DNA from: a candidate division KSB1 bacterium
Lineage (GTDB): Bacteria; Zhuqueibacterota; Zhuqueibacteria; Oleimicrobiales; Geothermoviventaceae
Length of the DNA: 33,242 nt
Direction of reading: 5' to 3'
Assembly: GCA_034506315.1 (NCBI GenBank)
Contig: JAPDPT010000037.1
Span: forward strand, 1 to 33,242
The translations under genes and the position numbers were made by a program. Shown one piece after another: positions 1,478-16,561 of the stretch (position 1 is the first letter of the stretch; every line of letters begins with the position of its first letter). Below the pieces are notes generated by a model. The model was not told where the DNA came from, made no database searches, and saw nothing but the letters and a program-made list of their open reading frames with translations.

Positions 1478-2608
1478 TCAGCCAAGCTCGGCGTATTTGC
1501 GGGCCACTTCCTCGGCCACTTCGAGCGTCGAGGAGGTGCCTCCCATATCGTAGGTTCGGACCTTTCCCTCTCGCACAACCTGGGCAATGGCCTCCTCCAA
1601 ACGGTCGGCTTTCTCTTGCTCGCCCAGCCATTCTAGCATCAGCCGCACAGCCAAAAGCATGGCCATCGGGTTCACCTTGTACTGGCCGGCGTATTTCGGA
1701 GCGGAGCCGTGCGTCGGTTCGAAGACCGCGTAATTATCCCCGATGTTGGCGGCCGAGGCGAACCCGAGGCCGCCCACCAGCTGCGCCGCCAGGTCAGAGA
1801 TGATATCGCCGAACATGTTCGTGGTGACGAGGACGCCATAATTCTGCGGGTTCTTGAGCAACCACATGCACATCGCGTCGATGTTCGCCTCCCAGAGCTC
1901 GATTTCGGGGTATCCCTTGGCCACCTCCCGAGCCACCCTCAGCATCAGCCCGGAGGTTTCCCGCAGAACATTGGCCTTCTCCACCACCGTCACGCTGCGG
2001 TAGCCGTGCTTGCGGGCGTACTCAAACGCATCGCGTACGATGTGCTCGCAAGCCTTGCGAGTCACGATGCGCAGTGTCACGGCGATCTCGTCCGGCGGTA
2101 CTGACGCAAATCGGGCCATCTTCGGGTGATTCTGCAAAAGCACATCCCGCACCGGCTCGGGAAGCGGGAAGAACTCCACCCCGCTGTACAGATCTTCGGT
2201 ATTCTCGCGAAAAACCACTATATCGATGTCGTCCCTGTAGTTCAGCGGGTTACCCGGGTAAGCTTTGCACGGGCGCAGATTCGTGCGGAGATTAAACTCC
2301 TGGCGAAGACGGACGATGGGGCTCGTGTACACGTATCCCTTGCCGCGGAGCTCAGGAGCCAGCTCGGCCTCTGCCTCCTCTTTCGGTTTGGAGGTAATGG
2401 CGCCAAAAAGCGCACAATCCGTCTCCTTGAGAAGCTTGATCGTCCGGTCGGGCAGAGGATTGCCCTCCTTACACCAGAATTCCCACCCGATGTCGCCGGG
2501 GACGTATTCCGCGTCCAGGGCGATTTGATCCAAAACGATCTTCGCGGCATCCATCACGTCCTTCCCAATACCGTCCCCTGGAAGCCAAGCGATTCGGTAT
2601 TTCGCCAT
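1478..2608 (-). CDS. Isocitrate/isopropylmalate dehydrogenase family enzyme
   Basis: A full-length 376-residue beta-decarboxylating dehydrogenase. Visible landmarks are PGDGIG near the start, the substrate-arginine segment (R102, R112), [10 protein letters not shown] (catalytic Tyr141), EKAN (Lys211), the metal aspartates D244, D268 and D272, and [10 protein letters not shown] (300-309). Lys305/Tyr306 and TYD near the C-terminus match NADP-binding residues of E. coli isocitrate dehydrogenase, although the matching Arg of that enzyme is glycine here. The isocitrate-contacting Asn115 position is Ile98, so true isocitrate specificity is doubtful; isopropylmalate, homoisocitrate or another 2-hydroxy acid remain possible. 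The ATG at 2608 follows GGAGG by 7 nt. The reading frame is open far upstream, but that stretch is a shadow of the barrel gene before it. A cytosolic enzyme inside a run of surface-protein genes is unexpected. Confidence 0.9.
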
Positions 2609-2634
2609 GCTTTCCCTCCACTTGAACCCGATGG

Positions 2635-3630
2635 CTAGAAAAACACGGAGAAGCCGAAGCAATGGGCGTCGCCGAAGTCGAAGCGCAGGGGCAGATAGGC
2701 GTAATCCAAGGAAAAGCGCGGTGTGTCGACGCCCACCCCCAAGCTCAGACGCTGCAGATCTACGCCCACAAGGTAGGCCCCGCGGACAGCGAGGGGCGGC
2801 TGCGGCCGAACCTGGAAGCTCAACGCCCCTTTCTTCCCCCCTCCCCAGTAGAGAGCATCGGCCGCCACGTACAGCCCGTCCTTCTGCCCGAACAAGGACC
2901 AGCACCTGCCCAGACCCATCCCCACGGCTGTACGGAGGTCTATCGGTCCATCGCCGAAGGATTTGGCGAGCGGCATCTGGCGCACAAAAGCGCCGATTGC
3001 AAGCGCCCCGGGAAGTCTCCGCGCCGTGAATCCGACATTCAGACTGACCGCACCTGCCTCGAAGACATCGATCTTCTGGTACAGCCACTCGCAGGAGATT
3101 CCTACGCCCAGCCCCTGCCCGATGTGGCGGGAAACGCCAAGTCCTGCGCGCAGGTGGTGAGCCGTGAACTGACCAATGAGCTCGTCCCGCGCGGTCCTCC
3201 GCTCTATCCCGGGAATCTCCAGCAACCCTCCCCAGACCGCCCAGGTCATCGCACGCCCCGGGTGCAAATAGGACGCCGCGTGTGCACGGGTACCTTGGAG
3301 CCAGGACAGGCTGGCCAGCGTCACGCCCGGCCTCCCGGCTTCGGAAGCAACCGCGACGTTCGTGAACGGCGCCTCGAAGGGCCAAAGCCCCACGGCTCCT
3401 ATTCCTCCAAGCGCTGCCGATCGCGGCGCCTGTGGAAGCTCCGTCCACGCATTATCCGTCCCACCGCCTGCGAGGGGCCGCGCCAGAGCCACCAACACGA
3501 GCCCCGTGCCGAGCACCCAGGTTCGATTCCGTCCGATCTCTGCCTCCGTAACGTATCTAGTCTGCCGATCGTCCAGACACAGGAGCCTACACCTCGGTAA
3601 CCTGCTTCTTAGGTCGCCTATTTGAGGCAC
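2635..3630 (-). CDS. Outer-membrane beta-barrel, PorV/PorQ-like (divergent)
   Basis: This encodes up to 331 residues and ends in the aromatic strand GFSVFF, a typical C-terminal signature of outer-membrane barrels. The mature part opens with PRSAALGGIGAVG and then TNVAVAS, a degenerate form of the GGA...NPA motif of PorV/PorQ and UPF0164 barrels, followed by alternating hydrophobic strands. Near the end, YAYLPLRFDFGDAHCFGFS resembles the last two strands of that family. A hydrophobic signal segment, WVLGTGLVLVALA, begins about residue 37, so the GTG start at 3630 may be too early; it has AAGGAG 12 nt upstream, and no better start in frame is obvious. It sits 31 bp after the other barrel gene and 26 bp before the dehydrogenase gene, consistent with one transcript. 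PorV-type proteins help deliver type IX cargo; that role here is inference. Confidence 0.7.
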   Translation of the reverse strand: MPQIGDLRSRLPRCRLLCLDDRQTRYVTEAEIGRNRTWVLGTGLVLVALARPLAGGGTDNAWTELPQAPRSAALGGIGAVGLWPFEAPFTNVAVASEAGRPGVTLASLSWLQGTRAHAASYLHPGRAMTWAVWGGLLEIPGIERRTARDELIGQFTAHHLRAGLGVSRHIGQGLGVGISCEWLYQKIDVFEAGAVSLNVGFTARRLPGALAIGAFVRQMPLAKSFGDGPIDLRTAVGMGLGRCWSLFGQKDGLYVAADALYWGGGKKGALSFQVRPQPPLAVRGAYLVGVDLQRLSLGVGVDTPRFSLDYAYLPLRFDFGDAHCFGFSVFF

Positions 3631-3661
3631 TTGCTCGCGAGGCTCCTTGGACCGCCAACCC

Positions 3662-4738
3662 TTATGGGAGCCCCGTCTGCCTTCTCCCGAAATCCACCCG
3701 CCAGCCTACCCAGTGGGCCGGCTGGGGAGACTCGGGCTCGGCGAAAAAGGCGTATTCGAGCCGGAAGTCACGTCCCCAAAGCGGCTGCCGGACGCCCAAC
3801 CCCAGGGCCGGGCGATTCCGCCGGATACCCGCGCGAAACAAAAACTCTTCCCCCATAGCCCACTGCAGACCTGCCGCCCAGGCCAAGGCGGAATCTTCCC
3901 TTTTCTCAATCTGGGCAAGGGCCAGGGCTCGCTGATCAAACGCGTGGCAGGCAAGGCCCAGTCGCAAGCCTCGGGGGAAATAGTCCGTCTTACTCGAGCC
4001 GTGTTCCCAGACGCCCTGCGTGTTCCACGTGTAGTGGGCGTTCAGATTCTCGGCGCAAAGGCCGACCGCAAAGCCACGCCCCGGCTCGATGAACATGCCG
4101 AGATCCACACCAAACCCCTGAGAAGAAAGAGCCCCTCCGTCCTCTTTCACACCAGGGAACCGACTGTAGAACACCTTACCCGTGAGCCCAAGGGCCACGA
4201 GTCTATGGGGCTTGAGCGCAAAAGCGAACAGGAAGGCGTTCTCGGAACTGGAAAGCGTGGCTGTATGGCGACCGTCCAGGTCGCGGCCGTCGATCTCCCC
4301 TACCCCCGCGTGGATCCAGGCCAGACCCACCGCCGCCGGTGGGCGAGGATGGGAGGCTTCCTCGAGCTTCCCCTTGCCTGCCGTTCCGACGGCCGCGGCG
4401 AACCCCACGAAACTCAACTTGCGGTCCAGGCTGAGCAAGGCATAGCTGCTGCCGAACTGGGGACCGGAAAGGGAGACCAGCGCTGCCGGATTGAAGCTGG
4501 CAGCGTAAACGGTACGAGACGCCGCAGTCATGGCACCTCCCAGCGCCATCGGCTCAGCCCCGATTCCGACACGCAGGAAGGCACCGGCACGTCCAGCCGT
4601 TCCGGCCGCCAAGGCCATCTGCACGGCAAACCCTACCTGGCCCACGAGCGCCAGATGGCTCACCCAAGCGGGCTTGGCCCCAAGCCCCCCCTTCCAGATC
4701 TGGTCAGTTCGTCGCGGGCCACGAAGCCGCTTCACCAA
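3662..4738 (-). CDS. PorV/PorQ family outer-membrane barrel
   Basis: About 358 residues. After a hydrophobic export segment, the mature N-terminus reads AGAFLRVGIGAEPMALGGA and soon after ASFNPAAL, which closely follows the family pattern AGAFLRxGxGARxxxMGGA...NPAGL. The remainder is predicted amphipathic strands, and the last strand region is EYAFFAEPES...HWVGWRVDFG. In Bacteroidota such proteins shuttle type IX cargo or act as accessory barrels, which fits the four sorting-domain proteins in this window. The start is TTG at 4738, six nt after GGAGGT; GTG at 4735 is the alternative. The signal sequence is longer than usual, so an internal GTG start near the hydrophobic stretch is also possible. 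It lies 47 bp after the propeller gene. Confidence 0.8.
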   Translation of the reverse strand: MVKRLRGPRRTDQIWKGGLGAKPAWVSHLALVGQVGFAVQMALAAGTAGRAGAFLRVGIGAEPMALGGAMTAASRTVYAASFNPAALVSLSGPQFGSSYALLSLDRKLSFVGFAAAVGTAGKGKLEEASHPRPPAAVGLAWIHAGVGEIDGRDLDGRHTATLSSSENAFLFAFALKPHRLVALGLTGKVFYSRFPGVKEDGGALSSQGFGVDLGMFIEPGRGFAVGLCAENLNAHYTWNTQGVWEHGSSKTDYFPRGLRLGLACHAFDQRALALAQIEKREDSALAWAAGLQWAMGEEFLFRAGIRRNRPALGLGVRQPLWGRDFRLEYAFFAEPESPQPAHWVGWRVDFGRRQTGLP

Positions 4739-4785
4739 AAGGCCACCTCCGTCTGAACTTTGTCCCTGCCCCCCATTATCGGGGG

Positions 4786-6258
4786 CTAATCGAGCACGAT
4801 CAGCTTGCCCCAGAAACTGCCTTCCCCTTCGATGTCCAGTCGGTAGAAATAGACACCGTTCGCCACCAGTTGCCCGCGCTCGTTCCGTCCGTTCCAGATC
4901 TCGGCGTAGTCGCCGGGAAGCGGTCTTTCCTTGTCTACCACAACGGTAGCCACCAATTCCATCGCGAAATCGAAAATGCGCAGCGAAACGCGTGTGGGAC
5001 GGGTCGTGTTGTACTGGAAACGGACGAAGCCCTCCCCGCTTATCTGGTTGTGGCGCGTTGGGGAAAAGGGATTGGGGTAGGCGTAGGTCCGAGGCGCTCC
5101 CGCGCGTCCCGTGGGGACAAAGCTGCGGAATATTGTCCAGGTGTTGCCATTGTCCGGGGTCATGGCCAGTCCGTCCGCGCCTCCCACCCAGAGGCGACGG
5201 TGGGCATCGACGGCGGCACCGTAGAATTCCGTCGTGAGGTAACGGGTGTCGTGTCGGAGGTCATAGATGTCGCCGAATGCAAACCAGGTCTTACCTCCGT
5301 CGACAGACTTAAAGAGCCCCTCATCGGCGCAAACGAAGACCGCCGTATCGTCGAATGCGAAGTTGTGGGCGAAGACCCCGCGGAGGGCCGTTTGCCATGT
5401 CTGGCCCTCGTCGTCGGTCCAGCTGACCCCGCGGAATTCGCTGGTGTCCCCGGTTTCGGAGGTCGTCTCCACCGTCGCAGCCCAGATGCGAGTGCGCCCG
5501 CGCAGGCGTTGCGCCGCCAGGGCTACGACGAAGTTTCCGGAGATCGGCTTTCGCTGGTTCTGGTGATTGAAGTTAATCCAAGTGCGACCGCTGTCTGCGG
5601 ATCGGTTCACACCCTTCGCGGTCCCAACCCATAGGACACCGTCGACGGCGATGACGGAAAAGGCGCGGTGATTCAGATTTCCGAGAGGATCGAAGAGGAA
5701 AGAGTCTGGGGGCACAATTTGCCATGTCCTGCCCCGGTCTCGGCTCCGCTGAAGCCCTCCGCCCCAGCTCGTGATCCACACCCATTCGCCCAGGATAGCG
5801 ATATCGTACGTGACGTTCTGGACCGGGGTCGGACCCGGTTGAGGCACGTGGACCCAGGTCTGTCCGCCGTCGGTAGAGTAGGAGAGACCGCCTCCCGCCG
5901 GGAGGCGCCCCGCGTCTTTCGTCAGGGTATCGAAGGCAGTGGCGACCCAGATGATGCTGTCCGTGACCATCAGGGCGGATACGCCACCCTTGCCAAGGCC
6001 ATGCCGGTGATCAAATGACTCCCAGCCTACGCCGTCATCGATAGACCGGCTGAGACCATGGCCCGTGGCCACCCAGATCGTGTCCCCAGCAAACCGAATG
6101 TCCGTGACGCTGTTGCTGGCCAAGCCCGAAGCGGGAGGAACCTCGCCACTCGATTCGTGCGCAAGCCGATAGGTGCGGAGGCCCTGGGCACCTGCAGAGG
6201 CCGCAAGGACCACGAGGAACAGCGTCTTGGCTGCCCACCACCGTGCTCTAATACACAA
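4786..6258 (-). CDS. Secreted seven-bladed Asp-box (BNR) propeller with type IX sorting domain
   Basis: 490 residues. The signal peptide ends at SAGA-Q near residue 25. Seven Asp boxes of the SxDxGxTW type start at residues 72, 128, 172, 220, 281, 318 and 367, each closing a propeller blade (IWVATGHGLSRS-like strands precede them). This is the count for a complete seven-bladed propeller of the sialidase/VPS10-like class. No catalytic residues of sialidases are recognisable, so a binding or scaffold role is more likely. Residues about 393-490 form a Por-secretion/FlgD-like C-terminal domain beginning YPNPFSP and ending FWGKLIVLD. The start is TTG at 6258, overlapping the stop of the lipoprotein gene by 11 nt, with GGAGA nine nt upstream; translational coupling to the lipoprotein is likely. 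Confidence 0.85.
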   Translation of the reverse strand: MCIRARWWAAKTLFLVVLAASAGAQGLRTYRLAHESSGEVPPASGLASNSVTDIRFAGDTIWVATGHGLSRSIDDGVGWESFDHRHGLGKGGVSALMVTDSIIWVATAFDTLTKDAGRLPAGGGLSYSTDGGQTWVHVPQPGPTPVQNVTYDIAILGEWVWITSWGGGLQRSRDRGRTWQIVPPDSFLFDPLGNLNHRAFSVIAVDGVLWVGTAKGVNRSADSGRTWINFNHQNQRKPISGNFVVALAAQRLRGRTRIWAATVETTSETGDTSEFRGVSWTDDEGQTWQTALRGVFAHNFAFDDTAVFVCADEGLFKSVDGGKTWFAFGDIYDLRHDTRYLTTEFYGAAVDAHRRLWVGGADGLAMTPDNGNTWTIFRSFVPTGRAGAPRTYAYPNPFSPTRHNQISGEGFVRFQYNTTRPTRVSLRIFDFAMELVATVVVDKERPLPGDYAEIWNGRNERGQLVANGVYFYRLDIEGEGSFWGKLIVLD

Positions 6259-7456
6259 CGAGGATCTTCTCCACGGTTTCGCTTTGTTGACCGACCCAGT
6301 CCACAGCCCGGAAGGAAAAACGGTAGCTTCCTAAGGCCACAGGAGGAAGTCCCGCCCGAGCCGCTTCCGCATCGGAGTAAACGACCATGGTGAACGTATA
6401 CACCCCGTCCCCCGCTGTCTCGTCGCCAAAATAGGGTTGTGGATACAGGGCGGGGTCAAAAGGGAGACCGTTGTCGACCATCGGGATGGGGTTCCCATTG
6501 TTCGCGTACGACCCATCCGGTTTCCGGGAGGTAAATCCCACCTCCCGAACGTCCGACAGGCCCTGGGGGTCGCGCACAGCCGCAAGGATCCGAAAGGCTA
6601 CCGATCCGGAAAGGGGCTTCGCCACCGAGTCCGGTGCGTCCACCCACACGATTTCGGGGGGCTCATTTTCGATCCTTATAGACCGCTCGGCGGGGGCGCT
6701 TCGAGCTCCTATGCGGTCGATCGCCACGAACTGAAGGCGGTACTCCCCCTTTTTTCCTGCCCCAAACTCCGAGGTAAGCCGGAGCTCGAAACACCCATCG
6801 CCAGCGGCAGGATCCCCATGGCTCCCGTCGTCGTAAAGCCGCCCCGCGAATATCTCCACTTCCCCTCGCAGCCCGGAGAACCGGACCTCTGCTACGTCGC
6901 CGATCCCATCGCTATCCGCGACCAAGATCCGGAAGCGGTAATCTCCTTCGAAACCACTGGGTAGCAAAGGTGGCGCCTCGACCTGGAGAATCTCCGGGGG
7001 GTGATTCCTTCGAGCAGTGACCCTGCGCTCCACCGACTCACTTTGGTGCCCTTCCCGGTCTTCCGCACGGAACGTAAGCCGGTAGGTGGCCTCGACAGGT
7101 CCACTCCATCTCCAGACCAAGCGCCCCGTAAAGAGGCCGTCGCCTGCGACCACATCTCCGTCCGAGGGGTGGTAATAGGCGCCATCGTCGTAGAGGGTGT
7201 CAGTGGCCAGCGGCTGTCCACCAGCTTCCGGATAAACCTCCACCACAACGTGCCGAACGGCTCGCACACCTTCTGGATGCGAAACCTTAGCCGTTAGGCT
7301 GCAAATTTGGTAGGGGCTCACGACCTGCGGGGCGTTCACTTCGAGGATGATGGGAAGGGCTTTGGGTTTCACAGCGTCTCCATCGCTGCCGCACCCTCCG
7401 ATGAACCCTGCGACCAGACAGGGGACTAGGGACAAAACTGTTCTTCTCAGGAACAC
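6248..7456 (-). CDS. Surface lipoprotein with three calcium-loop Ig-like repeats
   Basis: From the GTG at 7456 this encodes 402 residues starting MFLRRTVLSLVPCLVAGF and then IGGC, a good lipobox with the lipidated Cys at residue 22. A TTG at 7555 would add 33 residues and spoil the signal peptide, so I prefer 7456. The mature protein is built of three tandem Ig-like units, each with an acidic loop of the form LYDDG...GD..AGDGxF; the third reads MVDNG...GDETAGDGVY. This matches the choice-of-anchor X type of module, likely calcium-binding. Linkers NHPPEI and NEPPEIVWVDAP mark the domain joints. No enzyme motif is visible. Its stop codon overlaps the propeller start, so the two are probably made together and may interact at the cell surface. 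Confidence 0.82.
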   Translation of the reverse strand: MFLRRTVLSLVPCLVAGFIGGCGSDGDAVKPKALPIILEVNAPQVVSPYQICSLTAKVSHPEGVRAVRHVVVEVYPEAGGQPLATDTLYDDGAYYHPSDGDVVAGDGLFTGRLVWRWSGPVEATYRLTFRAEDREGHQSESVERRVTARRNHPPEILQVEAPPLLPSGFEGDYRFRILVADSDGIGDVAEVRFSGLRGEVEIFAGRLYDDGSHGDPAAGDGCFELRLTSEFGAGKKGEYRLQFVAIDRIGARSAPAERSIRIENEPPEIVWVDAPDSVAKPLSGSVAFRILAAVRDPQGLSDVREVGFTSRKPDGSYANNGNPIPMVDNGLPFDPALYPQPYFGDETAGDGVYTFTMVVYSDAEAARAGLPPVALGSYRFSFRAVDWVGQQSETVEKILVVY

Positions 7457-7618
7457 CGGGAGAGGCGCCTCACCGATCCGTCCCACGCGGCCTGCGCGAA
7501 ACACGTGACTGACAACCGACGCATCAAAGGTACGAAGGCCGGCCCTAAGTCGCAACGGCTTTCCCTCCGGGCGTACCCTGAGGTAACCTCGAGGGAGGGG
7601 TCAGGCCTGCACCCCCGG

Positions 7619-8704
7619 TCAGAAATAGACCACGGCAGCGTAGCCGACCCAGTGGCGAAGTGAACAGGGTGCGGTTACCCCCAATCCGTCGATCGAGGAG
7701 GGGAGACGACCGAGACCCAAGCTCGTATCGTAGCGAAGCAAGACACCCTCGGGAGGGTTCCTTCCCAACTCTGCCGCAAGGTGATAGCTGAGGAGAAGTC
7801 CGAACGGGACCGAGAAACGGCCGCACCAAGTGATCCGGTAGGTCCTCACGTCGTCCGGATCGACAAGCTCGTACAGAAGGGCGCGCAGCCGGTTGGGGGA
7901 CACGCTGCCCAGAAGGTATTCCCGGAGCAGGCGATACTCGCGATTCACGGCAGCCCCGTACCCTGTCTCCCCAACGCCGAACGGGGCGAAGTTGCGCCCA
8001 CCCCATCCGTCATCCCCATAGTGAACAGCGTCCGAGGAGATCAAGATCACAAAGTCCTCTCCCCAGACCAGCTTCTGCACCCGTGTGAGCTCCGCGAGGC
8101 TGCGCGCTAGGGCCCGGGCGATCGTGTCCATTCTCCCCCAGTGCATGTAGGGAACCAGGAGGGCCAGGATCTGGACGTTCCTCTGCCGGTATTGCATCCA
8201 GGGGATCAGCGCTTCGAGCGAATGCTCCTCGGCGTGGCAGGCGTCGCACACCCGGAACAGATCGTTCGGAAGCCGACGAAGAAGGGAGTCCCGTAAATCC
8301 CACACGGTCACAGGCCCCCACGGCCCACGCCACTGCTCGAAGGAGTCGAAGAGCACGCGATTGGCCTCTCCCCACTGCGCAGCGCGGTGGGCAACGCCGA
8401 TGAGAATGGCGCGCGGTGCCGAAAACTTACGAAAGAGATGCCAGTACACGCGCCCGGCGTACAGATAATCGTCGTGGGGGGAGATAGCAACAAGCCATCC
8501 CTTGCGCCGGGAAGCCCAGACCGCCCGCTCGCGCAGGGCGAGGCTGTCCCTCTCCAGGCTGTCGCAGAGCTGGATCACCCGCTCCATCTGCCCCGGAAAG
8601 CGCGCAAACCCCAGGGTGTCCGCAAGACCCCGGGTCCTCTGCCCCCGTACAGCCATCGGCAAGCAGACGAACAGAGCCGTCGTGAGGACTACGCGCCGGA
8701 CCAT
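7619..8704 (-). CDS. Exported MEMO-family (AmmeMemoRadiSam B-like) metalloprotein
   Basis: 361 residues from ATG 8704, seven nt after GAGGTG. Residues 1-21 form a clear Sec signal peptide (MVRRVVLTTALFVCLPMAV then RGQ). The rest is a full MEMO domain: ISPHDDYLYAG (His77), LIGVAH (His106), EEHSLEALIPWMQY (160-173), LISSDAVHYG (Asp225, His228), TWCGRFSVPFG (Cys294) and the family-typical end HWVGYAAVVYF. His77, His106 and Cys294 align with the His49, His81 and Cys244 metal site of human MEMO1, so metal binding is probably kept; PHAGY is changed to PHDDY. Bacterial MEMO proteins are usually cytosolic and encoded near AMMECR1 or radical-SAM genes, neither of which is seen here. It lies 10 bp after the carboxypeptidase gene. 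Activity is unknown; LigB-type dioxygenases are distant relatives. Confidence 0.85.
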   Translation of the reverse strand: MVRRVVLTTALFVCLPMAVRGQRTRGLADTLGFARFPGQMERVIQLCDSLERDSLALRERAVWASRRKGWLVAISPHDDYLYAGRVYWHLFRKFSAPRAILIGVAHRAAQWGEANRVLFDSFEQWRGPWGPVTVWDLRDSLLRRLPNDLFRVCDACHAEEHSLEALIPWMQYRQRNVQILALLVPYMHWGRMDTIARALARSLAELTRVQKLVWGEDFVILISSDAVHYGDDGWGGRNFAPFGVGETGYGAAVNREYRLLREYLLGSVSPNRLRALLYELVDPDDVRTYRITWCGRFSVPFGLLLSYHLAAELGRNPPEGVLLRYDTSLGLGRLPSSIDGLGVTAPCSLRHWVGYAAVVYF

Positions 8705-8714
8705 CCTTGGCACC

Positions 8715-11700
8715 TCACCGCAGCAGCAGAATCTTCTGTGCGCCCGCCCAGCGCAGAGCGCCGTGGCGGTCCCAGACCTGCAGCCGGCACAGGTAGATTC
8801 CGGAAGGAAGTTCCTCTCCCGAATCGGCTTTTCCATCCCAGCGGACCAGGTGGGTTCCCGGGGCGACCTCGCCGCCCCCGAGCAACCGGACGCGACGTCC
8901 CCTGGCGTCCGCGATAACCAATTCTGCCCGCGCCGCCTCCGGAACCCAGTATCGAACGACCGTTTCCGCGTTAAAGGGATTCGGGAAGCACGGAGCCAAC
9001 CCAAAGCCCTCCGGTACGGCTTGCCCCTCGGTCTTCGCGACGGACGGCGTGCGAGCCTCCACGACCACGGGGATCGTCTTTTCCTCCGCGCCGGGCACGT
9101 TCATCCGCAAGCGAACGTAACCCCGGGCAGGAAGGGCCTTGATCTGTCCGCAATCCACCCGCACGCGGACGCACAGTCGGCCGCCGTGGGGAACCATAGC
9201 CGAATCCGGGAAGGCGAAAAGCCAGGAGCCGCGGCGTGTAGCGACCGCCGATTCGATCCGCTCCTCTTCTGTACCCACCTGCCCGATGTGCAAGACCCGC
9301 CAGTCCCGACCCAGGACCGATTGCGGCAGAACAACCCGAGTAAGACCATCTCGTGTTTCGGCTGGCACGGTTACCAGCCAGCGCTTTTCCTCCAGCGACC
9401 CAAGAGCCACCTGCTCCTTCTCGCACTTCACCACGAAAGACTCCGCTCCCGGCCACGTCCGCATTACTAACGTGCAGGGGGCAACGCAAGCCAGAAAAGC
9501 GTACCCATCAGACAGATGGACGGCGGGGCCCGGGTGTGAAGCACCAACTCCTCTCTCTGAAGGCCAAGCGGGGAGTTTCCCCTTGGCCCACGGCTCGGGA
9601 ACCCCGGTGAAGCTCTCAAGAGCGATGGCCTTGCTGCATTTCTGGCTACCGGCTTCTCCCGACGGCCGGGTGGAAAGCCCGGGCTCCGGTTCGACCCTGA
9701 CGAGCAGGTCAAGGAGGCCTTCGTTTGCGATCCACAGACTGTCCTGAAGGAGGGAAGAACCGGGATCCGAGACTTCGAAGCAAAGAGAGTCCGGCCAGAC
9801 CCGGGGTGTGGGTCCGTCGTTGGTGACCCAAAAGCTGAAGGTGGCCTCGGGCGCCGCCAGCGGCTCTCTCACCACGTTCCCCTGGTCATCGGCCACCTCG
9901 AGGTAGAATTCCACCCGTGTGCCGAGGGGTTGGCCTGGCAACCAACCGATGTAACGGCTTCCCTGTCCCACCATGGGAATCCGATCCCAGCGAGGGCCGT
10001 TTCGGCGCACAATCTCCGCGCGAGCGATGCGCCCATCGTCCGTGATCTGAGCCTCCACCGGGTACGGCCCTTCCGTATCCGGGGTATTTCGAGGCAAGGT
10101 AAGCAGCGTTAGTGAGGGTGCACCCCTGGCATGGACTGTCCATGCGACGTCGTCGAGGTACCAGCCGTAGTCCTGGACGTAGCCGTCGCTGCCAAAATGG
10201 AACTGCAGAACCACGGTATGGCCGACGAAGGGCGACAGATCGAAGGTCTCAAGACGCCAGGAGTTACCCGTGCCGGGCGGTCCGCCAAAGGCCGGCTCCC
10301 CTCCCAGCGCGGAATTGTACCGGTCCACCCACCCATCGTAGCCGCGCAGGCTCGTCAGCAAGACCTGAAAGGGACCGCGGTCGACGGAGATCTTCACATT
10401 TCCCCCATCCCAAAGCTTTCCGTCGCTGTACTCGAACTGGTACCAGTGCCAAAATCGGAAGGTCGCTGCTTCCGCGTGTGTCAAGTCGATGGGGGGAGTC
10501 TCCAACCGTGCGTCGGCGTTGTCCCCATAGGTCCCGTTCAACCGGGTAGCCCAAACCCTCATCCCCGAGTGGGCGCTCCCGGGTCCGGTGGTCGGGACAC
10601 CCCATTCCCACTGGCGGTCGGAAGTGACGGTCAACCCGGGATCGTCTTCGAAGTCCAGAATCCGGTCGGGCACCAACTGAAATCTGTACCAGCCAGTATC
10701 CGGCGCTACGGCCACATTCTTGCGCCGGGAACCGTCCCTGGCGACGATCCGGTACCAAACGGTCTGCCATGCCCGCGGGTGCGGGAGGGTTAGCGAGCCC
10801 GCGAACTCCCCTTCCCCTCGATCGGTCAGCCCCACCGTAAAGAGGATCCACTCGTCCGTCCGATACTCGACCCAGGCGGAATCGACACCCGCAACGTCGT
10901 GGATCCAGGCGCGAATGGGGAAAGCGGCATCGAAAGCGGATCTCTGCACGGAGGGGCGATGGACAATGGTCGGTCCCAGTGTGTCGGGCCGGACGTGAAA
11001 CTCGAATACAGAATCTGGAGCACACCGAGGGGCAGCTCCTCTCCGTCCGCCGCTGGTACGGGCCGTGAGGTAGTAACGGTAAGAGCGGCATCCGGGACTC
11101 GCCGGGATTACCCCGACGTATTCGTCGCCGCCCACTGGGTGCAAGACCGTGGAGTCAAACGGTGCGTTCCCGGCCGCATAGTGGAGCCACAGGCTAGAGG
11201 GATCCAAGCCCGATGGGCCAGTCAGCGGTATCGGCGGACGAACCCTGGCCCGGACAATGAATGGGCCGTCTTCGTCTTCCGTGTCGGGTAGAGGCTGAAC
11301 CTCGACGATCGGCTCTTCACCCGCAGCCCAGATCGCGTACAGGAGGGGGCCGAGAGTCTCCAAGATCAAAGAGCGAATCTGGGATGTATCGGGATGGAAG
11401 CTGGTCCCGACTTCAAGGGTGAAGCCGAACATCTTGGTTTTGAGTTCCTGCTCCCCGTACAGCCAATCGCAAGCCTCCCCATTCGTCAGGTAGATTACCC
11501 CCGAGGCCGCATTTCGAGGGGTGTAGCGGTTGTACCCGACCATGCTGTCGGCCAGAGCCCGAAAGACCTCGTGATCCGGTGTGTTCTCGGGGATATAGCC
11601 CCATGGGAAGAGGACCAGACGGCCAAAGCTGTGGAGGGACAGCACAATGCGGAACGGCTCTCGGAGGCAAAGATCCCGGAACGCCTGGGTCTCCGGTTCC

Positions 11701-12587
11701 GAAAAAGGGGCTTCGCCGCGATATACCTCCGACGAGGGCTCGGGGCTGGATCCCACGTCATCGAAACCCCACATGAAGCCGTAGTTGCGGTTGAGGTCGA
11801 CCCCGTACGTACCGTTGGCATTCCTCCGCCTATTCTTTCGCCACCATCGGTCGAAGCGATGGACGTAGTCCAGCCCGTCAGGATTCAGCGTAGGCAGAAT
11901 CCAGATCTGCCGCTGGTTCACCAGGTAGGTGATGTACGGGTCCTTGCCATAGCGTTCGAGGAGGTAATGGATCAGGAAAATGGCGATCTCGGGGGTAATG
12001 ATTTCTCGTGCGTGGTGGTTCGCCACGATCGCCACCCGGGGTTCGTCCTCCTCCGTCTCCACATTGTCTGAGATTTTGATGGCGAGGATATCCCTGTCCG
12101 CCAGCCTTTGAGTCTTCTCCCAGCTGTCCCCCAAGTCGTAGACCTTGGCGATGCCGGGGTACGATCGTTCTGCCCACTGGAGCTCGCTCTTACACTCGCC
12201 GTAGTCGTGGAAGTGCTCAAAGTAGCCGCTCTGACGCAAATGGGACTCGAAGATGGCCAGATCGGGGATCTCCACCTCATACGGTAGTCGAAGGCTGTCC
12301 AGAAGGGCAACATCCCGGGGTCGGGTCAGTACGAAAAGAGTCCGACTCGCCGCATCATAGCCCGCTACGTCCGGACCCGCACGCAGGAACTGAACGACTG
12401 CAGGGTCAGCCACATCTGGGACGCGTACACGCACCAACTTGGTGGGACGCTCAGCCCAAGCGTACCCGGCTCCCAAGCCCGAGAGGAATATCCCCGCCAC
12501 ACACCACCGTGCACACCACACCGTGGCCCACCGCACGATGTACGCACTCCATCCCACAGCCTTACCGCTTTCTATCTCGCCTCTCAT
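8715..12587 (-). CDS. Secreted M14 zinc carboxypeptidase with MAM-like, Ig and type IX sorting domains
   Basis: 1290 residues. The signal segment ends at AWA near residue 45. Residues about 115-415 are an M14 peptidase: NHHAREI supplies the HxxE zinc ligands His192 and Glu195, then NPDGLDY, DLNRNYGF (substrate-binding Arg267), LSLHS (zinc His319), SGVIYLTNGEACDW (Tyr366) and FTLEVG (general base Glu392); all catalytic residues are present. It is followed by Ig-like units, a lectin-like jelly-roll (about 650-830) of the kind in immune-inhibitor-A peptidases with WYLDDV, more Ig-like units, and a C-terminal sorting module from CFPNPFNAET to KILLLR. Such enzymes remove C-terminal residues from peptides outside the cell. 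The start region is weak: ATG 12587 has a poor ribosome-binding site, and GTG starts closer to the signal peptide are possible. It lies 11 bp after the subtilase. Confidence 0.9.
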   Translation of the reverse strand: MRGEIESGKAVGWSAYIVRWATVWCARWCVAGIFLSGLGAGYAWAERPTKLVRVRVPDVADPAVVQFLRAGPDVAGYDAASRTLFVLTRPRDVALLDSLRLPYEVEIPDLAIFESHLRQSGYFEHFHDYGECKSELQWAERSYPGIAKVYDLGDSWEKTQRLADRDILAIKISDNVETEEDEPRVAIVANHHAREIITPEIAIFLIHYLLERYGKDPYITYLVNQRQIWILPTLNPDGLDYVHRFDRWWRKNRRRNANGTYGVDLNRNYGFMWGFDDVGSSPEPSSEVYRGEAPFSEPETQAFRDLCLREPFRIVLSLHSFGRLVLFPWGYIPENTPDHEVFRALADSMVGYNRYTPRNAASGVIYLTNGEACDWLYGEQELKTKMFGFTLEVGTSFHPDTSQIRSLILETLGPLLYAIWAAGEEPIVEVQPLPDTEDEDGPFIVRARVRPPIPLTGPSGLDPSSLWLHYAAGNAPFDSTVLHPVGGDEYVGVIPASPGCRSYRYYLTARTSGGRRGAAPRCAPDSVFEFHVRPDTLGPTIVHRPSVQRSAFDAAFPIRAWIHDVAGVDSAWVEYRTDEWILFTVGLTDRGEGEFAGSLTLPHPRAWQTVWYRIVARDGSRRKNVAVAPDTGWYRFQLVPDRILDFEDDPGLTVTSDRQWEWGVPTTGPGSAHSGMRVWATRLNGTYGDNADARLETPPIDLTHAEAATFRFWHWYQFEYSDGKLWDGGNVKISVDRGPFQVLLTSLRGYDGWVDRYNSALGGEPAFGGPPGTGNSWRLETFDLSPFVGHTVVLQFHFGSDGYVQDYGWYLDDVAWTVHARGAPSLTLLTLPRNTPDTEGPYPVEAQITDDGRIARAEIVRRNGPRWDRIPMVGQGSRYIGWLPGQPLGTRVEFYLEVADDQGNVVREPLAAPEATFSFWVTNDGPTPRVWPDSLCFEVSDPGSSLLQDSLWIANEGLLDLLVRVEPEPGLSTRPSGEAGSQKCSKAIALESFTGVPEPWAKGKLPAWPSERGVGASHPGPAVHLSDGYAFLACVAPCTLVMRTWPGAESFVVKCEKEQVALGSLEEKRWLVTVPAETRDGLTRVVLPQSVLGRDWRVLHIGQVGTEEERIESAVATRRGSWLFAFPDSAMVPHGGRLCVRVRVDCGQIKALPARGYVRLRMNVPGAEEKTIPVVVEARTPSVAKTEGQAVPEGFGLAPCFPNPFNAETVVRYWVPEAARAELVIADARGRRVRLLGGGEVAPGTHLVRWDGKADSGEELPSGIYLCRLQVWDRHGALRWAGAQKILLLR

Positions 12588-12598
12588 AGGGCCTTGGC

Positions 12599-15500
12599 CT
12601 ATTTCAATAGGAGTGCCTTCTGCACCGCACGCACCTCCCCGGCTTCAAACACCACGAGGTATACCCCGCTGGCGACCGGCTGGCCTCTCTGATCCCGCCC
12701 GTCCCACTCTACCTGATACGAACCGGGAGAGTGCTTGCTGTCCACGAGGGTGCGGACCTCATGTCCAAGCAGGTCATAGACCCGGAGGGTAACCCGGACA
12801 GGCTCCGAGACCTCGTAGCGCAAGATTGTCGAGGGGTTGAAGGGGTTGGGAAAGTTGGGATAAAGGGTGCTCAGCCGGGGCAACGGTTCCCGGCGGTCAT
12901 CCACAGCCACACCCGTCTCTTCGATCACCTGCACGTCGTCCACAAACCAGCCAAAGAACGGGGGAACCTGAGTGGCGTCGCTCTGCATTCGGAAGCGAAG
13001 TCGGACGTCGTTCATCCCGGAACCTGTCAGGTGGTCAAGCGAGATTTCGCGCTGTACCCATTGGGCCTGAACCCCCGTGATAGGCTGTCCCAGCCGTTGC
13101 CACGTCTGCCCGCCGTCTACACTTGCCTCCACATAGCCGTAATCGTGATTGAATTCGAGGTAGTACTTGGTCCAGAAGCGAAGCACCACGGAGCGGCTCT
13201 GGGAGAAGTCGAAGCCGAAGTTCGTCTCCAGGCTCACATTGGCGTTGTTTGGATACTGCCCACCGGGGCTATCGTTGACGGAGAACCTTCCGCTGTGGGC
13301 GTACACCGTCTCAAGACCCCACCCGCCTTGTGGGGCACTCCAGTGGGTCAGGCCGGACTCAAAGTCCTCCAGCCCGACCACAAAGCGGAAGGTGTCCGAG
13401 ATCGCTCGATTCCGGGCTTGACTGGCGTCGGCTGCGCTCAGGAAATACTCCACGGTTTCGCCGTACCGGAAAACCGGCGGGATCTGCCCACGGAACTGGG
13501 TCGGGACATCCCCCGGCGCCAGCCTGGCGCTATCGGCCACGCTGGGGGACCGAAAGTGAACGTACACAGAGCCTGTGTCCACGCGGAGATTATCCGTGAC
13601 GGTCGCCACTACCTCAAACGGCGCCTCGCCGTTGATGCAGTTCGGCAGGCCCACATGGGTGATTACGGGTGGATACACGTCCAGCCCAGCGTAGAATCGG
13701 AACACCTGACGTGGAGCCACTGCGGGCTTCCGCCACTCGAAATACTGCGTGGACACCTCAACGTAGTATTCCACCGCGGCCGGCTGGTGCGGAGCGGGGA
13801 TGGTGCCCGAGTACACACCCGGGGCCTGCTCCTGCATTTCCACAGCGTGGAAGCCGATCTCCCCCGCCTGGCGCCAGAAAAGCCGGACTCCCCTTAAGTC
13901 TGTCAGATCTCCACTAATCCGGACCGTGATCGGGCGGGAGGCGTGCACATCCTCCGTATCGGTGAGCGGTTCGTGCTCGACGGGGCTAAGGTACTCCAGG
14001 ATACGCCGCATGAGCTGATCTCGCACGGTGCTGCTGTCCGAGGGCTTGGTGGAGTACTTCGAGTCCACCGCCTCGAAGCCGAACCCCATATAGACGACCC
14101 GGTAAGCGCCGGAGAAGCGAACCCCTCCTGCCTTCCCGTTCGGGTAAAGGAAGATCGGCCGCGCCCCATTCAGAGGCTCCATCACGTCCGGGTACTGGTT
14201 CTCGACGTTCCTGCCTGGCTGATAAATGGCGAAGCGGAGACCATCCGTGATGGGGTCACCGGGAATGCCCCTTACCTCTCCTGACTCCGCGTCGTCGGAG
14301 AGATAGCGAGCGTGTAAGTAGTTCTCGTAGAAGCTGACGGCGTCGATTCCTGTGTTGTCGCTGGCGGGATCGCACAGGTCCCAGCCAATGTCCTGGCCGT
14401 GGAGGAAAAGACCGCCCCCTCGTTCCAGGAATTGCCGGAGGGCGGCGCGATCACCTGCGTCCAAGCTCGGGAACGCCCACTCGCACAGCCAGATCACAAT
14501 CGGGAAGTGGCAGAGGAAATCGCCTCTCGGATGCCCGTTTGTCCGGATATCCCAGACGCTGTAGTTGATGCCCAACCTCTCCAAAGATGCGATCGTGTAG
14601 CCCTCGACGTCGTAGTCTCCGGTATTTCCCCCAACCTCATCGTGGTCGTCATCGACGACCAGGACGGGCGTCTTGCCGATCAGGACCTTTACCGTGTCCG
14701 AACGGCTCATCCCCGCCTCTTCATGGGTCAAGACGATGCGGGCGATGTGGCCGCGGGCATCGGGCCGAATGCGGAAGCTCAGCGTCGTCGGAATGGTTGC
14801 CGTTGTCTCCCCTTCCAGGTGGGCGAGGAGATACTCGGATTGAAGCACCTCGAGCCCGGGCTCTGGCGTGGAAAGAAGGATCCGCACATTGTCTGCCGAG
14901 CCCACAGAGTAGTTCCGGTACGTGGCCACAACTGTGATCGTCTCGCCGTGCTCCAGGAGCCCATCGCCGTCCCCGAAGTCCCGATCGCTGACGGTCGCGT
15001 TCACCAACCGGATGCGCGGCTTGACAGGGGGCACCGTGGACGTGGCAACCGCCGCGTAGGCATTGACCAGGCCGTCTCCAATCATCCCCTCGTAGCCCGG
15101 GTTGAGGCCGTCGATGTTGGTGCAAGTGCCAGCGATGCGCTGCTGCACCTCTCGCCACGTCGCCGAGGGGAAGTGGGAACGCACCAGGGCCGCCACGCCG
15201 GAAACAAGGGCAGCGGAAGCACTGGTTCCGGCCGTAAGATACCCTTCCTTCGTGCGGGCCCGATAGAGCTGGGAGAACCCGTACTCGGGAAAATAGGGAG
15301 CGGTGGAGATGATCTCGGCCGGCGGCGATACGTTGAAGTCCCCTCCGGGAGCCGCAACATCGACGGTCGGCCCGTAATTCGAAATCGAGCTCAGCCTGCC
15401 CTGGAAGCCTGTAGCGGCCACGCAGAGCACTCCCGGGTAGCCGGAGGGGTAGTGTTCCTCATCGCTGGCTGAATTCCCCGCTGCGGCCACAAAGACCACG

Positions 15501-16462
15501 TTCCTGCTCAGACCGTACTCAATCACATCCCGCTGCGTCTGGGAGGCCGCACCGCCTCCGAAGCTCATGTTCACGACGTGCGCGCCATTGTCGATCGCGT
15601 AGCGTATTCCATTGGTGAGGTCAGAGGTCGAGCCCGAGCCTTCATCGCTCAGCGACTTGACGGGCATGATTGTGCACCGGAAGCCGGCCCCTGCGATCCC
15701 GCGGCCGTTGTGGGTGGCAGCCCCGGCCAACCCGGCCATGGCCGTCCCGTGGTCGGTTCCATCATCGGCCATGCCGTCACCATCATCATCGACCCCGTTC
15801 GGCTTGGGCCTCGGGTCCGGCACCCCATTGACGAAGTCCCAGCCGTGTACGTCATCGGCGTATCCATTGTGATCGTCATCGCGGCCATTGTTGGGGATCT
15901 CCCGCGTATTCGTCCAGATCTTGGCCGCAAGGTCAGGATGGTTGATATCCACTCCTGTGTCCACGATGCCGATGATGACCGAGGCATTTCCCTGCTCTAC
16001 GTCCCAGGCCTCGGGGAGTCGGAGCTCCCGCAGGTACCACTGCTGAACGAAAAGGGAGTCATTAGGGGTAAAGTGGACCTCGTACAGGTAGTCTGGCTCA
16101 GCGTACTCCACGGAGGGCAACTCGGAGAGAACCCGTGCCAGATAGTCCTCCGAGTATGGGCCCCGGACTGCGAGCTTGTAAATCCGGTCCAAACCGAAGC
16201 GCATCGCCTCCGTAGATAGGCCCTGGAAAAGCGGCTGCTCGCTCCCCACCACGATTGCACTGGCGACAGCACTTTTCCGGAGGCTAAGTTCGTTGTAGAG
16301 GCTTGCCGGAGTCGCTCCCGGCTTCATCTTAACCAGAAGCCTGCCTGGGACCCAATGGGGCTTTTTCGGAGCTCCCCCGCCCGTCCTTGCTATTCCTTGC
16401 GCGGCCAGTGCGGCCGATAGTAAGAGACCCCCTATACCTTTAGCCCAGGTAGAAAACCGCAT
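12599..16462 (-). CDS. Secreted S8 subtilisin-like protease with amidotransferase-like, MAM-like and type IX sorting domains
   Basis: 1287 residues from ATG 16462, chosen because AAGAGG lies seven nt upstream and a signal peptide begins there; a longer frame to 16561 lacks these. Domains: signal peptide; inhibitor-I9-like propeptide (to about 130); S8 catalytic domain with Asp168 (IVDTGVD), His238 (DHGT), oxyanion Asn330 (AAAGN) and Ser414 (GTSAS, where most relatives have GTSMA). Acidic, calcium-loop-like inserts follow the Asp (NNGRDDDHNGYADD, GVDDDGDGMADDG). After an Ig-like unit, residues about 598-828 form a Rossmann-like segment (VLVVDDD, GGGLFLHGQD), then further Ig-like units, a jelly-roll with FFGWFVDDVQV, and a sorting module from NFPNPFNPST to KALLLK. 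It leads the surface-protein operon and is a likely partner of the carboxypeptidase in peptide breakdown. Confidence 0.92.
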   Translation of the reverse strand: MRFSTWAKGIGGLLLSAALAAQGIARTGGGAPKKPHWVPGRLLVKMKPGATPASLYNELSLRKSAVASAIVVGSEQPLFQGLSTEAMRFGLDRIYKLAVRGPYSEDYLARVLSELPSVEYAEPDYLYEVHFTPNDSLFVQQWYLRELRLPEAWDVEQGNASVIIGIVDTGVDINHPDLAAKIWTNTREIPNNGRDDDHNGYADDVHGWDFVNGVPDPRPKPNGVDDDGDGMADDGTDHGTAMAGLAGAATHNGRGIAGAGFRCTIMPVKSLSDEGSGSTSDLTNGIRYAIDNGAHVVNMSFGGGAASQTQRDVIEYGLSRNVVFVAAAGNSASDEEHYPSGYPGVLCVAATGFQGRLSSISNYGPTVDVAAPGGDFNVSPPAEIISTAPYFPEYGFSQLYRARTKEGYLTAGTSASAALVSGVAALVRSHFPSATWREVQQRIAGTCTNIDGLNPGYEGMIGDGLVNAYAAVATSTVPPVKPRIRLVNATVSDRDFGDGDGLLEHGETITVVATYRNYSVGSADNVRILLSTPEPGLEVLQSEYLLAHLEGETTATIPTTLSFRIRPDARGHIARIVLTHEEAGMSRSDTVKVLIGKTPVLVVDDDHDEVGGNTGDYDVEGYTIASLERLGINYSVWDIRTNGHPRGDFLCHFPIVIWLCEWAFPSLDAGDRAALRQFLERGGGLFLHGQDIGWDLCDPASDNTGIDAVSFYENYLHARYLSDDAESGEVRGIPGDPITDGLRFAIYQPGRNVENQYPDVMEPLNGARPIFLYPNGKAGGVRFSGAYRVVYMGFGFEAVDSKYSTKPSDSSTVRDQLMRRILEYLSPVEHEPLTDTEDVHASRPITVRISGDLTDLRGVRLFWRQAGEIGFHAVEMQEQAPGVYSGTIPAPHQPAAVEYYVEVSTQYFEWRKPAVAPRQVFRFYAGLDVYPPVITHVGLPNCINGEAPFEVVATVTDNLRVDTGSVYVHFRSPSVADSARLAPGDVPTQFRGQIPPVFRYGETVEYFLSAADASQARNRAISDTFRFVVGLEDFESGLTHWSAPQGGWGLETVYAHSGRFSVNDSPGGQYPNNANVSLETNFGFDFSQSRSVVLRFWTKYYLEFNHDYGYVEASVDGGQTWQRLGQPITGVQAQWVQREISLDHLTGSGMNDVRLRFRMQSDATQVPPFFGWFVDDVQVIEETGVAVDDRREPLPRLSTLYPNFPNPFNPSTILRYEVSEPVRVTLRVYDLLGHEVRTLVDSKHSPGSYQVEWDGRDQRGQPVASGVYLVVFEAGEVRAVQKALLLK

Positions 16463-16503
16463 TTTCGTGCCTCTTTTCAAGTCGTCTTCTCCACGATCCG
16501 ACC

Positions 16504-16541
16504 TACACCGCGGTGTAAACGCCACCGCCCACAATTTACAC
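16504..16541. repeat. Operator-like dyad with three GTGTA half-sites
   Basis: TACACCGCGGTGTA at 16504-16517 is a perfect 14-bp palindrome. A further inverted copy, TTTACAC at 16535-16541, pairs with GTGTAAA at 16513-16519 across 15 bp. The cluster overlaps the -10 box and the first transcribed bases of the proposed subtilase promoter, the usual place for a repressor site. The binding protein is not in the window. Confidence 0.5.
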
Positions 16542-16561
16542 GAGAAGAGGCCGAGATCCAA
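16533..16561 (-). promoter_or_regulatory. Candidate sigma70-type promoter of the subtilase operon
   Basis: On the minus strand TTGGAT (16561-16556) is followed after exactly 17 bp by TAAATT (16538-16533), about 71 nt before the ATG. The same -10 hexamer and spacing occur in the promoter near 20.98 kb, which strengthens both calls. Operator-like repeats overlap it. Confidence 0.5.

Follow-up and report, generated by a model that had tools for sequence, protein, structure and literature searches.

To what end would a bacterium carry a MEMO-family gene whose product begins with an apparent signal peptide and which lies among the genes of secreted peptidases? The question is raised by the gene at positions 7619 to 8704 of the window, by which we mean the whole 33,242-nucleotide stretch of candidate division KSB1 DNA analysed here. 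A first-pass annotation of the letters had read its product as an exported, possibly copper-binding oxidoreductase that acts on peptides or aromatic compounds at the cell surface, in a setting new to a family known from the cytosol. On the evidence of its sequence, the protein is not an oddity but belongs to a distinct and large MEMO clade marked by the motif PHDD. We propose, as a reading on which we stand evenly poised, that it is a Sec-exported periplasmic enzyme with a MEMO1-like fold and a retained His-His-Cys triad, which would hold a single iron (or copper) ion and work outside AmmeMemoRadiSam.

The gene lies on the minus strand and encodes 361 amino acids between a start ATG at 8704 and a stop at 7619, the ATG being preceded by GGTGAGGTG with an AGGTG-like ribosome site. 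Its product scores 63 bits against the Memo profile PF01875 (cut-off 27), matching profile positions 35-183 of 269, and 70.5 bits against TIGR04336 (cut-off 26). A profile search with the protein retrieved MEMO1 as its match in the PDB; the single window sequence gave no match there, nor did the protein have one in PHROGs. Over the entire chain the protein is predicted to adopt the MEMO1 fold.

The metal site is complete, as had been claimed. The residues for which roles are described in the excerpted text of PMC11081632 on human MEMO1 (H49, H81, C244, D189 and H192) all have their counterparts in a profile alignment (Table 1), including the triad of H77, H106 and C294, and these five residues are identical, together with E160 and E164, in all 63 clade rows and all 29 canonical rows. 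Human MEMO1 is described in that excerpt and in one of PMC9477392 as binding Fe and Cu(I) at H49, H81 and C244, with a proposed role in copper sequestration. That the window protein binds a metal is in our judgement probable, but the ligands suit Fe and Cu equally and the two are inseparable by sequence, so that we dropped the copper-specific reading and find the "copper-binding oxidoreductase" of the first-pass annotation unsupported.

What sets the clade apart begins next to the first ligand, where it has PHDD at the PHAG position of canonical MEMO: D78 is found in 63/63 clade rows against Ala in 29/29 canonical rows, and D79 in 63/63 against Gly in 28/29, with W293 and H351 emerging from the row comparison as further marks. 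In a quick tree of 92 sequences, which we chose from those at hand and which carries Shimodaira-Hasegawa-like approximate likelihood ratio test (SH-aLRT) support only, the two groups are split by one very long branch with a support of 100. The homologue search found 2435 proteins at E ≤1e-3 among 7999 scored, the nearest relative standing at 69%, and a scan with each species represented by one genome found 445 related stretches, so that the supposed new setting of a single protein is that of one among hundreds. The best 80 of these 445 (below, the 80 loci) are in records that bear the names Calditrichota, KSB1, Bacteroidota, Acidobacteriota, Aminicenantes, Latescibacterota, Gemmatimonadota and Planctomycetota, among others. 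Among the window's own genome and 59 relatives, a clade profile scored 322-540 bits in 15 of the 60, all other matches staying at or below 58 bits; within the phylum the gene is present in 19 of 82 genomes. Family-wide, TIGR04336, at its cut-off of 26 bits, gives these proteins the name "AmmeMemoRadiSam system protein B", a label that is probably misleading for the PHDD clade, in whose examined loci the other components are missing. Burroughs et al. 2019 reportedly described five Memo-clade families, one of which may be identical with the PHDD clade.

The N-terminus of the window protein reads MVRRVVLTTALFVCLPMAVRG, followed by QRTRG, and combines two Arg, a hydrophobic core and a V-x-G cleavage-like site, at which its three nearest relatives have a Q in the same position. 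We scored such starts with a simple rule of our own, which asks for a positive n-region and an uncharged hydrophobic core ahead of the mature domain. This loose rule is passed by 76 of the 80 loci, several of them with a lipobox, and by 0/9 stand-alone canonical MEMOs taken as a control; the misses are L020, L036, L043 and L068, of which L020 has a signal-like start and seems to fail on charge. The first-pass annotation had asked whether homologues in related genomes start without a signal; all 15 carriers among the window's relatives, its own genome included, keep it by the rule. Export of the window protein by Sec, as first suggested from its signal peptide, is thereby supported and can be predicted with high confidence.

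When the rule is applied to 120 catalogue proteins at the starts assigned to them, 91 pass and 29 fail. A nested signal-less group can be discerned in the tree, comprising P0050, P0055, P0074, P0077, P0079 and others, in all 17 catalogue proteins in or beside it plus L043, a Betaproteobacteria record and its sole named member. The other 12 failing proteins are scattered over the tree; some, such as P0072, P0093, P0101 and P0102, look like missed signals or truncated starts, and others, such as P0024, P0028 and P0057, do not. A single loss of the signal was suggested by a first tree with 16 signal-less rows picked by eye, which needed one change, but was not upheld, since 12 changes are needed once all 29 failing proteins are included (L020 was scored as exported in both trees despite failing the rule). 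Repeated loss of export within the clade, or repeated misplacement of starts, may account for this scatter.

As to its destination, the periplasm seems a better guess than the cell surface favoured at first, because Pfam and NCBIfam find no C-terminal sorting domain of the type IX secretion system (T9SS) in the MEMO protein, although the S8 protease of the same run has one and the genome has a SprA match; the M14 carboxypeptidase likewise ends in a FlgD/T9SS-type tail.

We then asked how the clade relates to AmmeMemoRadiSam. Profile searches of 95 clade loci (the 80, 14 more and the window, with at least three duplicates and many short contigs) found AMMECR1 in none and a radical SAM (S-adenosylmethionine) gene in one, L077, some 8 kb off, so that AMMECR1 and a TIGR04337 radical-SAM gene occur together in none of these loci. 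The same AMMECR1 and radical-SAM profiles matched 14 and 15, respectively, of 16 canonical loci, which had been fetched for those genes and thus constitute a positive control rather than a fair contrast. AMMECR1 does occur in 13 of the 15 carrier genomes, each time on a contig other than that with the PHDD gene, and in the window's genome (G000) the sole match lies on contig C5. The window is the entire contig C37, and there is therefore nothing just outside it in this assembly; the earlier view that no AMMECR1 or radical-SAM partner adjoins the gene stands.

No recurrent partner of another kind emerged either. Neighbour clustering in the 80 loci gave no cluster in more than 9 loci, and a Pfam scan of 98 immediate neighbours gave no family in more than 6 (25 of 129 families listed). 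These 98 remained from 108 in-frame neighbours of 100-650 amino acids after 10 apparently spurious ones had been removed by hand. The neighbour lists are incomplete: L004 and L044 among the 80 have no clustered MEMO, and the selection of open reading frames lost some genes to longer antisense frames (among them the MEMO in L121, L124 and L127 and the radical-SAM gene in L084). In three relatives of family f3 (L119, L123 and L128) the PHDD gene lies near DUF362 (3/3) and a CxxCxxCC metal-binding protein (3/3), with a nitroreductase and an ACT-domain protein (two shown of each) and in some NIF3, surroundings that echo those of canonical MEMO. Near the PHDD MEMO of another genome (G034), L118 6730-7359 encodes a peptide methionine sulfoxide reductase whose N-terminus resembles a signal.

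The host also has a canonical set of its own. On contig C5 (locus L084, 8456-12973) are a DUF362 protein, at 73 bits against PF04015, and a TIGR04337 radical-SAM protein, both with a twin-arginine start. Signal-like starts are seen on two further products of the locus, a MEMO-AMMECR1 fusion and a nitroreductase, the latter with a SagB-like match under the model cut-off. Of 21 such fusions in this genome and its relatives, 20 carry a signal and the remaining one is cut by a contig end; L001 and L002, which are the same genes as L084 and L085, and L144, contig-cut, next to a radical-SAM gene and with its signal present, are excluded from this count and from the 0/9 above. By eye, RRxF is found in 14/14 radical-SAM proteins with a complete N-terminus (one more is truncated), and a twin-arginine motif is visible in 9 of 12 DUF362 proteins. 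RRx followed by a large hydrophobic residue occurs within the first 45 residues in 115 of the 120 best radical-SAM homologues, the query itself included, and in 32 of 638 neighbour genes of at least 250 amino acids taken as a control; TatC is present. The canonical set in the host organisms thus appears to be exported, and similarly in relatives, and the premise that known MEMO proteins are cytosolic already fails in this genome. One could speculate, with a confidence falling just short of even, that these bacteria conduct MEMO chemistry outside the cytoplasm twice over: by a PHDD-MEMO free in the periplasm, and by an AmmeMemoRadiSam set exported in full, whose radical-SAM and DUF362 proteins would leave through Tat, whose MEMO-AMMECR1 fusion would be Sec-exported or lipid-anchored, and whose members would act together. 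If true, this would place a radical-SAM enzyme system at work beyond the cytoplasmic membrane. The supply there of SAM and of low-potential electrons speaks against an active periplasmic radical-SAM enzyme, and an exported set would raise the question of their source. A literature search, to which the superfamily survey of Burroughs et al. 2019 was out of reach, found no report of an exported MEMO or an exported radical-SAM partner. One hit, PMC10805854, is judging by its excerpt irrelevant to MEMO, which enters there through a strain name, MEMO17_8.

How might the window protein work? Fe(II) or Cu(I) would be bound in the pocket by H77, H106 and C294, and D225, H228, E160 and H161 perhaps line, with the clade-specific D78/D79, R138, W293 and H351, a site for a small envelope molecule; it is the presence of invariant residues beyond the ligands that argues for a substrate pocket. 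The last and least certain step would be redox or ring chemistry on that molecule. We consider catalysis rather likelier than storage, and lean slightly towards a chemistry independent of O2 in this host. The window genome, which is 99% complete, has no COX1 above the cut-off, and its cytochrome-bd matches, of 93 and 51 bits, are partial. These two matches, adjacent to each other at G000:C4:33447-35411 and also seen in the same-genus genome, perhaps represent a divergent bd-type protein.

Several observations weigh against the proposed periplasmic enzyme. The signal rule is loose, being passed by 86 of 609 internal stretches and, among 735 other genes in the 80 loci, by 342, and it is failed by the 29 catalogue relatives; for want of a widely recurring partner gene, the neighbourhood gives no substrate, and with many carrier contigs short a more distant partner could be missed. 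The cytochrome-bd matches do exceed the Pfam cut-off, and a strong terminal oxidase was found in 20 of 25 picked carriers (all except G000, G001, G082, G093 and G096), which leaves room for O2 chemistry. Finally, human MEMO1 is, in the excerpted text of PMC11081632, without detected dioxygenase activity on standard substrates, which leaves room for a non-catalytic role.

The alternative that fares best, though we think it unlikely, is an O2-dependent dioxygenase of extradiol type, or an oxidase, that is exported and acts on envelope aromatics, for which the terminal oxidases of 20 of the 25 picked carriers leave room. Ring cleavage by O2 is doubtful in this host because the third ligand, which is Glu in LigB-type dioxygenases at the position of C244 (PMC11081632, in excerpt), is here a Cys in 63/63 rows, because no such activity has been found for MEMO1 on standard substrates, and because COX1 is missing above the cut-off and the bd matches are partial only. 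Both genomes of the window's genus and three further carriers share this lack of COX1, with cytochrome-bd matches nil or weak and partial, and no aromatic-degradation family is among the 25 of 129 neighbour families listed. Somewhat less likely still is a non-catalytic periplasmic metal binder engaged in buffering, sensing or delivery of Fe or Cu. The metal binding and proposed copper sequestration of human MEMO1 would suit it; invariance well past the ligands (E160, E164, D78, D79, R138, W293 and H351) suggests a substrate pocket instead, and the same 25 listed families include none for metal transport.

The peptide link of the first-pass annotation, by which the protein would modify or bind peptides as a member of a secreted S8-M14 peptidase operon, has in its favour the gene's place as third in a close-packed minus-strand run S8-M14-MEMO, with gaps of 11 nt between S8 and M14 and of 10 nt between M14 and MEMO. 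This order is found only in the window and in one same-genus genome (G001). In the 94 loci tested besides the window, of which some are truncated by contig ends, the window's M14 is matched in that one other genome, at two loci, and a related S8 in 2 genomes; records from many phyla hold the PHDD clade in different surroundings. The peptidase context is specific to the lineage, and the order, being confined to two genomes of one genus, says little on function; we regard the peptide reading as improbable and, like the copper idea, as possible but not indicated. Least probable of all is a cytosolic protein, as the stand-alone canonical MEMOs are, with an N-terminus that does not function in export. 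In its favour, the rule is loose, and 17 of the 29 failing catalogue relatives belong to one nested group without any signal, which implies that the fold can work in the cytosol; against it, signals are present in 76/80 loci and 15/15 relative carriers, many with lipoboxes, and in 0/9 stand-alone canonical MEMOs.

The neighbours are otherwise much as first annotated: S8, M14, a lipoprotein-like protein and a pair of PorV/PorQ-like proteins that both score under the model cut-off (Table 1). Positions 1478-16561 hold likely T9SS cargo (S8, M14 and the propeller) and the PorV/PorQ-like proteins, then an isocitrate/isopropylmalate dehydrogenase gene (PF00180). The order of this run is common to G001 and in part to G002, which shares the downstream genes and whose contig ends upstream of MEMO.

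Table 1 Coordinates of the MEMO gene, its codons of interest and the neighbouring genes in the window
Feature	Positions	Strand	Basis
PHDD-clade MEMO-fold protein, 361 aa	7619..8704	-	Pfam, TIGR04336, profile alignment
Predicted Sec signal peptide, residues 1-22, cleavage site inferred	8639..8704	-	sequence and similar homologue starts
His77 codon (MEMO1 H49), metal ligand	8474..8476	-	profile alignment; conserved 63/63 and 29/29
Asp78-Asp79 codons, clade mark (Ala-Gly in canonical MEMO)	8468..8473	-	row counts
His106 codon (MEMO1 H81), metal ligand	8387..8389	-	profile alignment; conservation
Asp225 codon (MEMO1 D189)	8030..8032	-	profile alignment; conservation
His228 codon (MEMO1 H192)	8021..8023	-	profile alignment; conservation
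Cys294 codon (MEMO1 C244), metal ligand	7823..7825	-	profile alignment; conservation; PMC11081632 (excerpt)
S8 subtilase, FlgD_ig / T9SS type A sorting tail; first of the close-packed three	12599..16561	-	Pfam, NCBIfam
M14 carboxypeptidase, InhA-like MAM and FlgD_ig tail; upstream, 10-nt gap	8715..12587	-	Pfam
Choice-of-anchor X protein, downstream	6248..7555	-	NF041940 48 bits (cut-off 25); lipobox-like GGC by eye
Asp-box/sortilin-like propeller, FlgD_ig-like tail	4786..6258	-	all matches under curated cut-offs
PorV/PorQ-like outer-membrane protein	3662..4738	-	NF033709 60.8 bits, under cut-off 90
Second PorV/PorQ-like outer-membrane protein	2635..3630	-	NF033709 37.2 bits, under cut-off

From archaea to human cancer biology, what MEMO does at the molecular level is still an open question. 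Two points are noteworthy here: export is predicted widely across a MEMO clade, and a canonical system beside it appears to be exported as well. An exported, partner-free PHDD clade would narrow the candidate substrates to extracytoplasmic ones and offer simple test proteins, through which MEMO's role, probably an enzymatic one, would become open to study beyond the cytoplasm.

Among known systems, AmmeMemoRadiSam protein B (TIGR04336, often fused to AMMECR1) resembles the window protein in its score above the cut-off, in its metal site and, in the fused form of the same genome, in a signal-like N-terminus; the PHDD clade differs from it in its very long separate branch and in its 95 loci without AMMECR1 and with a single radical-SAM gene, 8 kb away. 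The class III extradiol dioxygenases (LigB, DesB, 2-aminophenol and DOPA dioxygenases) have Glu as third ligand where the window protein has Cys294, so that the 2-His-1-Glu iron site of the LigB type is not the site found here. Human MEMO1 (PDB 3bcz, 7kq8, 7l5c and 7m8h), with which the window protein shares 17-18% identity, is described as cytosolic in the excerpt of PMC11081632, whereas the window protein is predicted to be exported, has PHDD for PHAG and WCGR for ICGR, and is about 65 residues longer, signal included.
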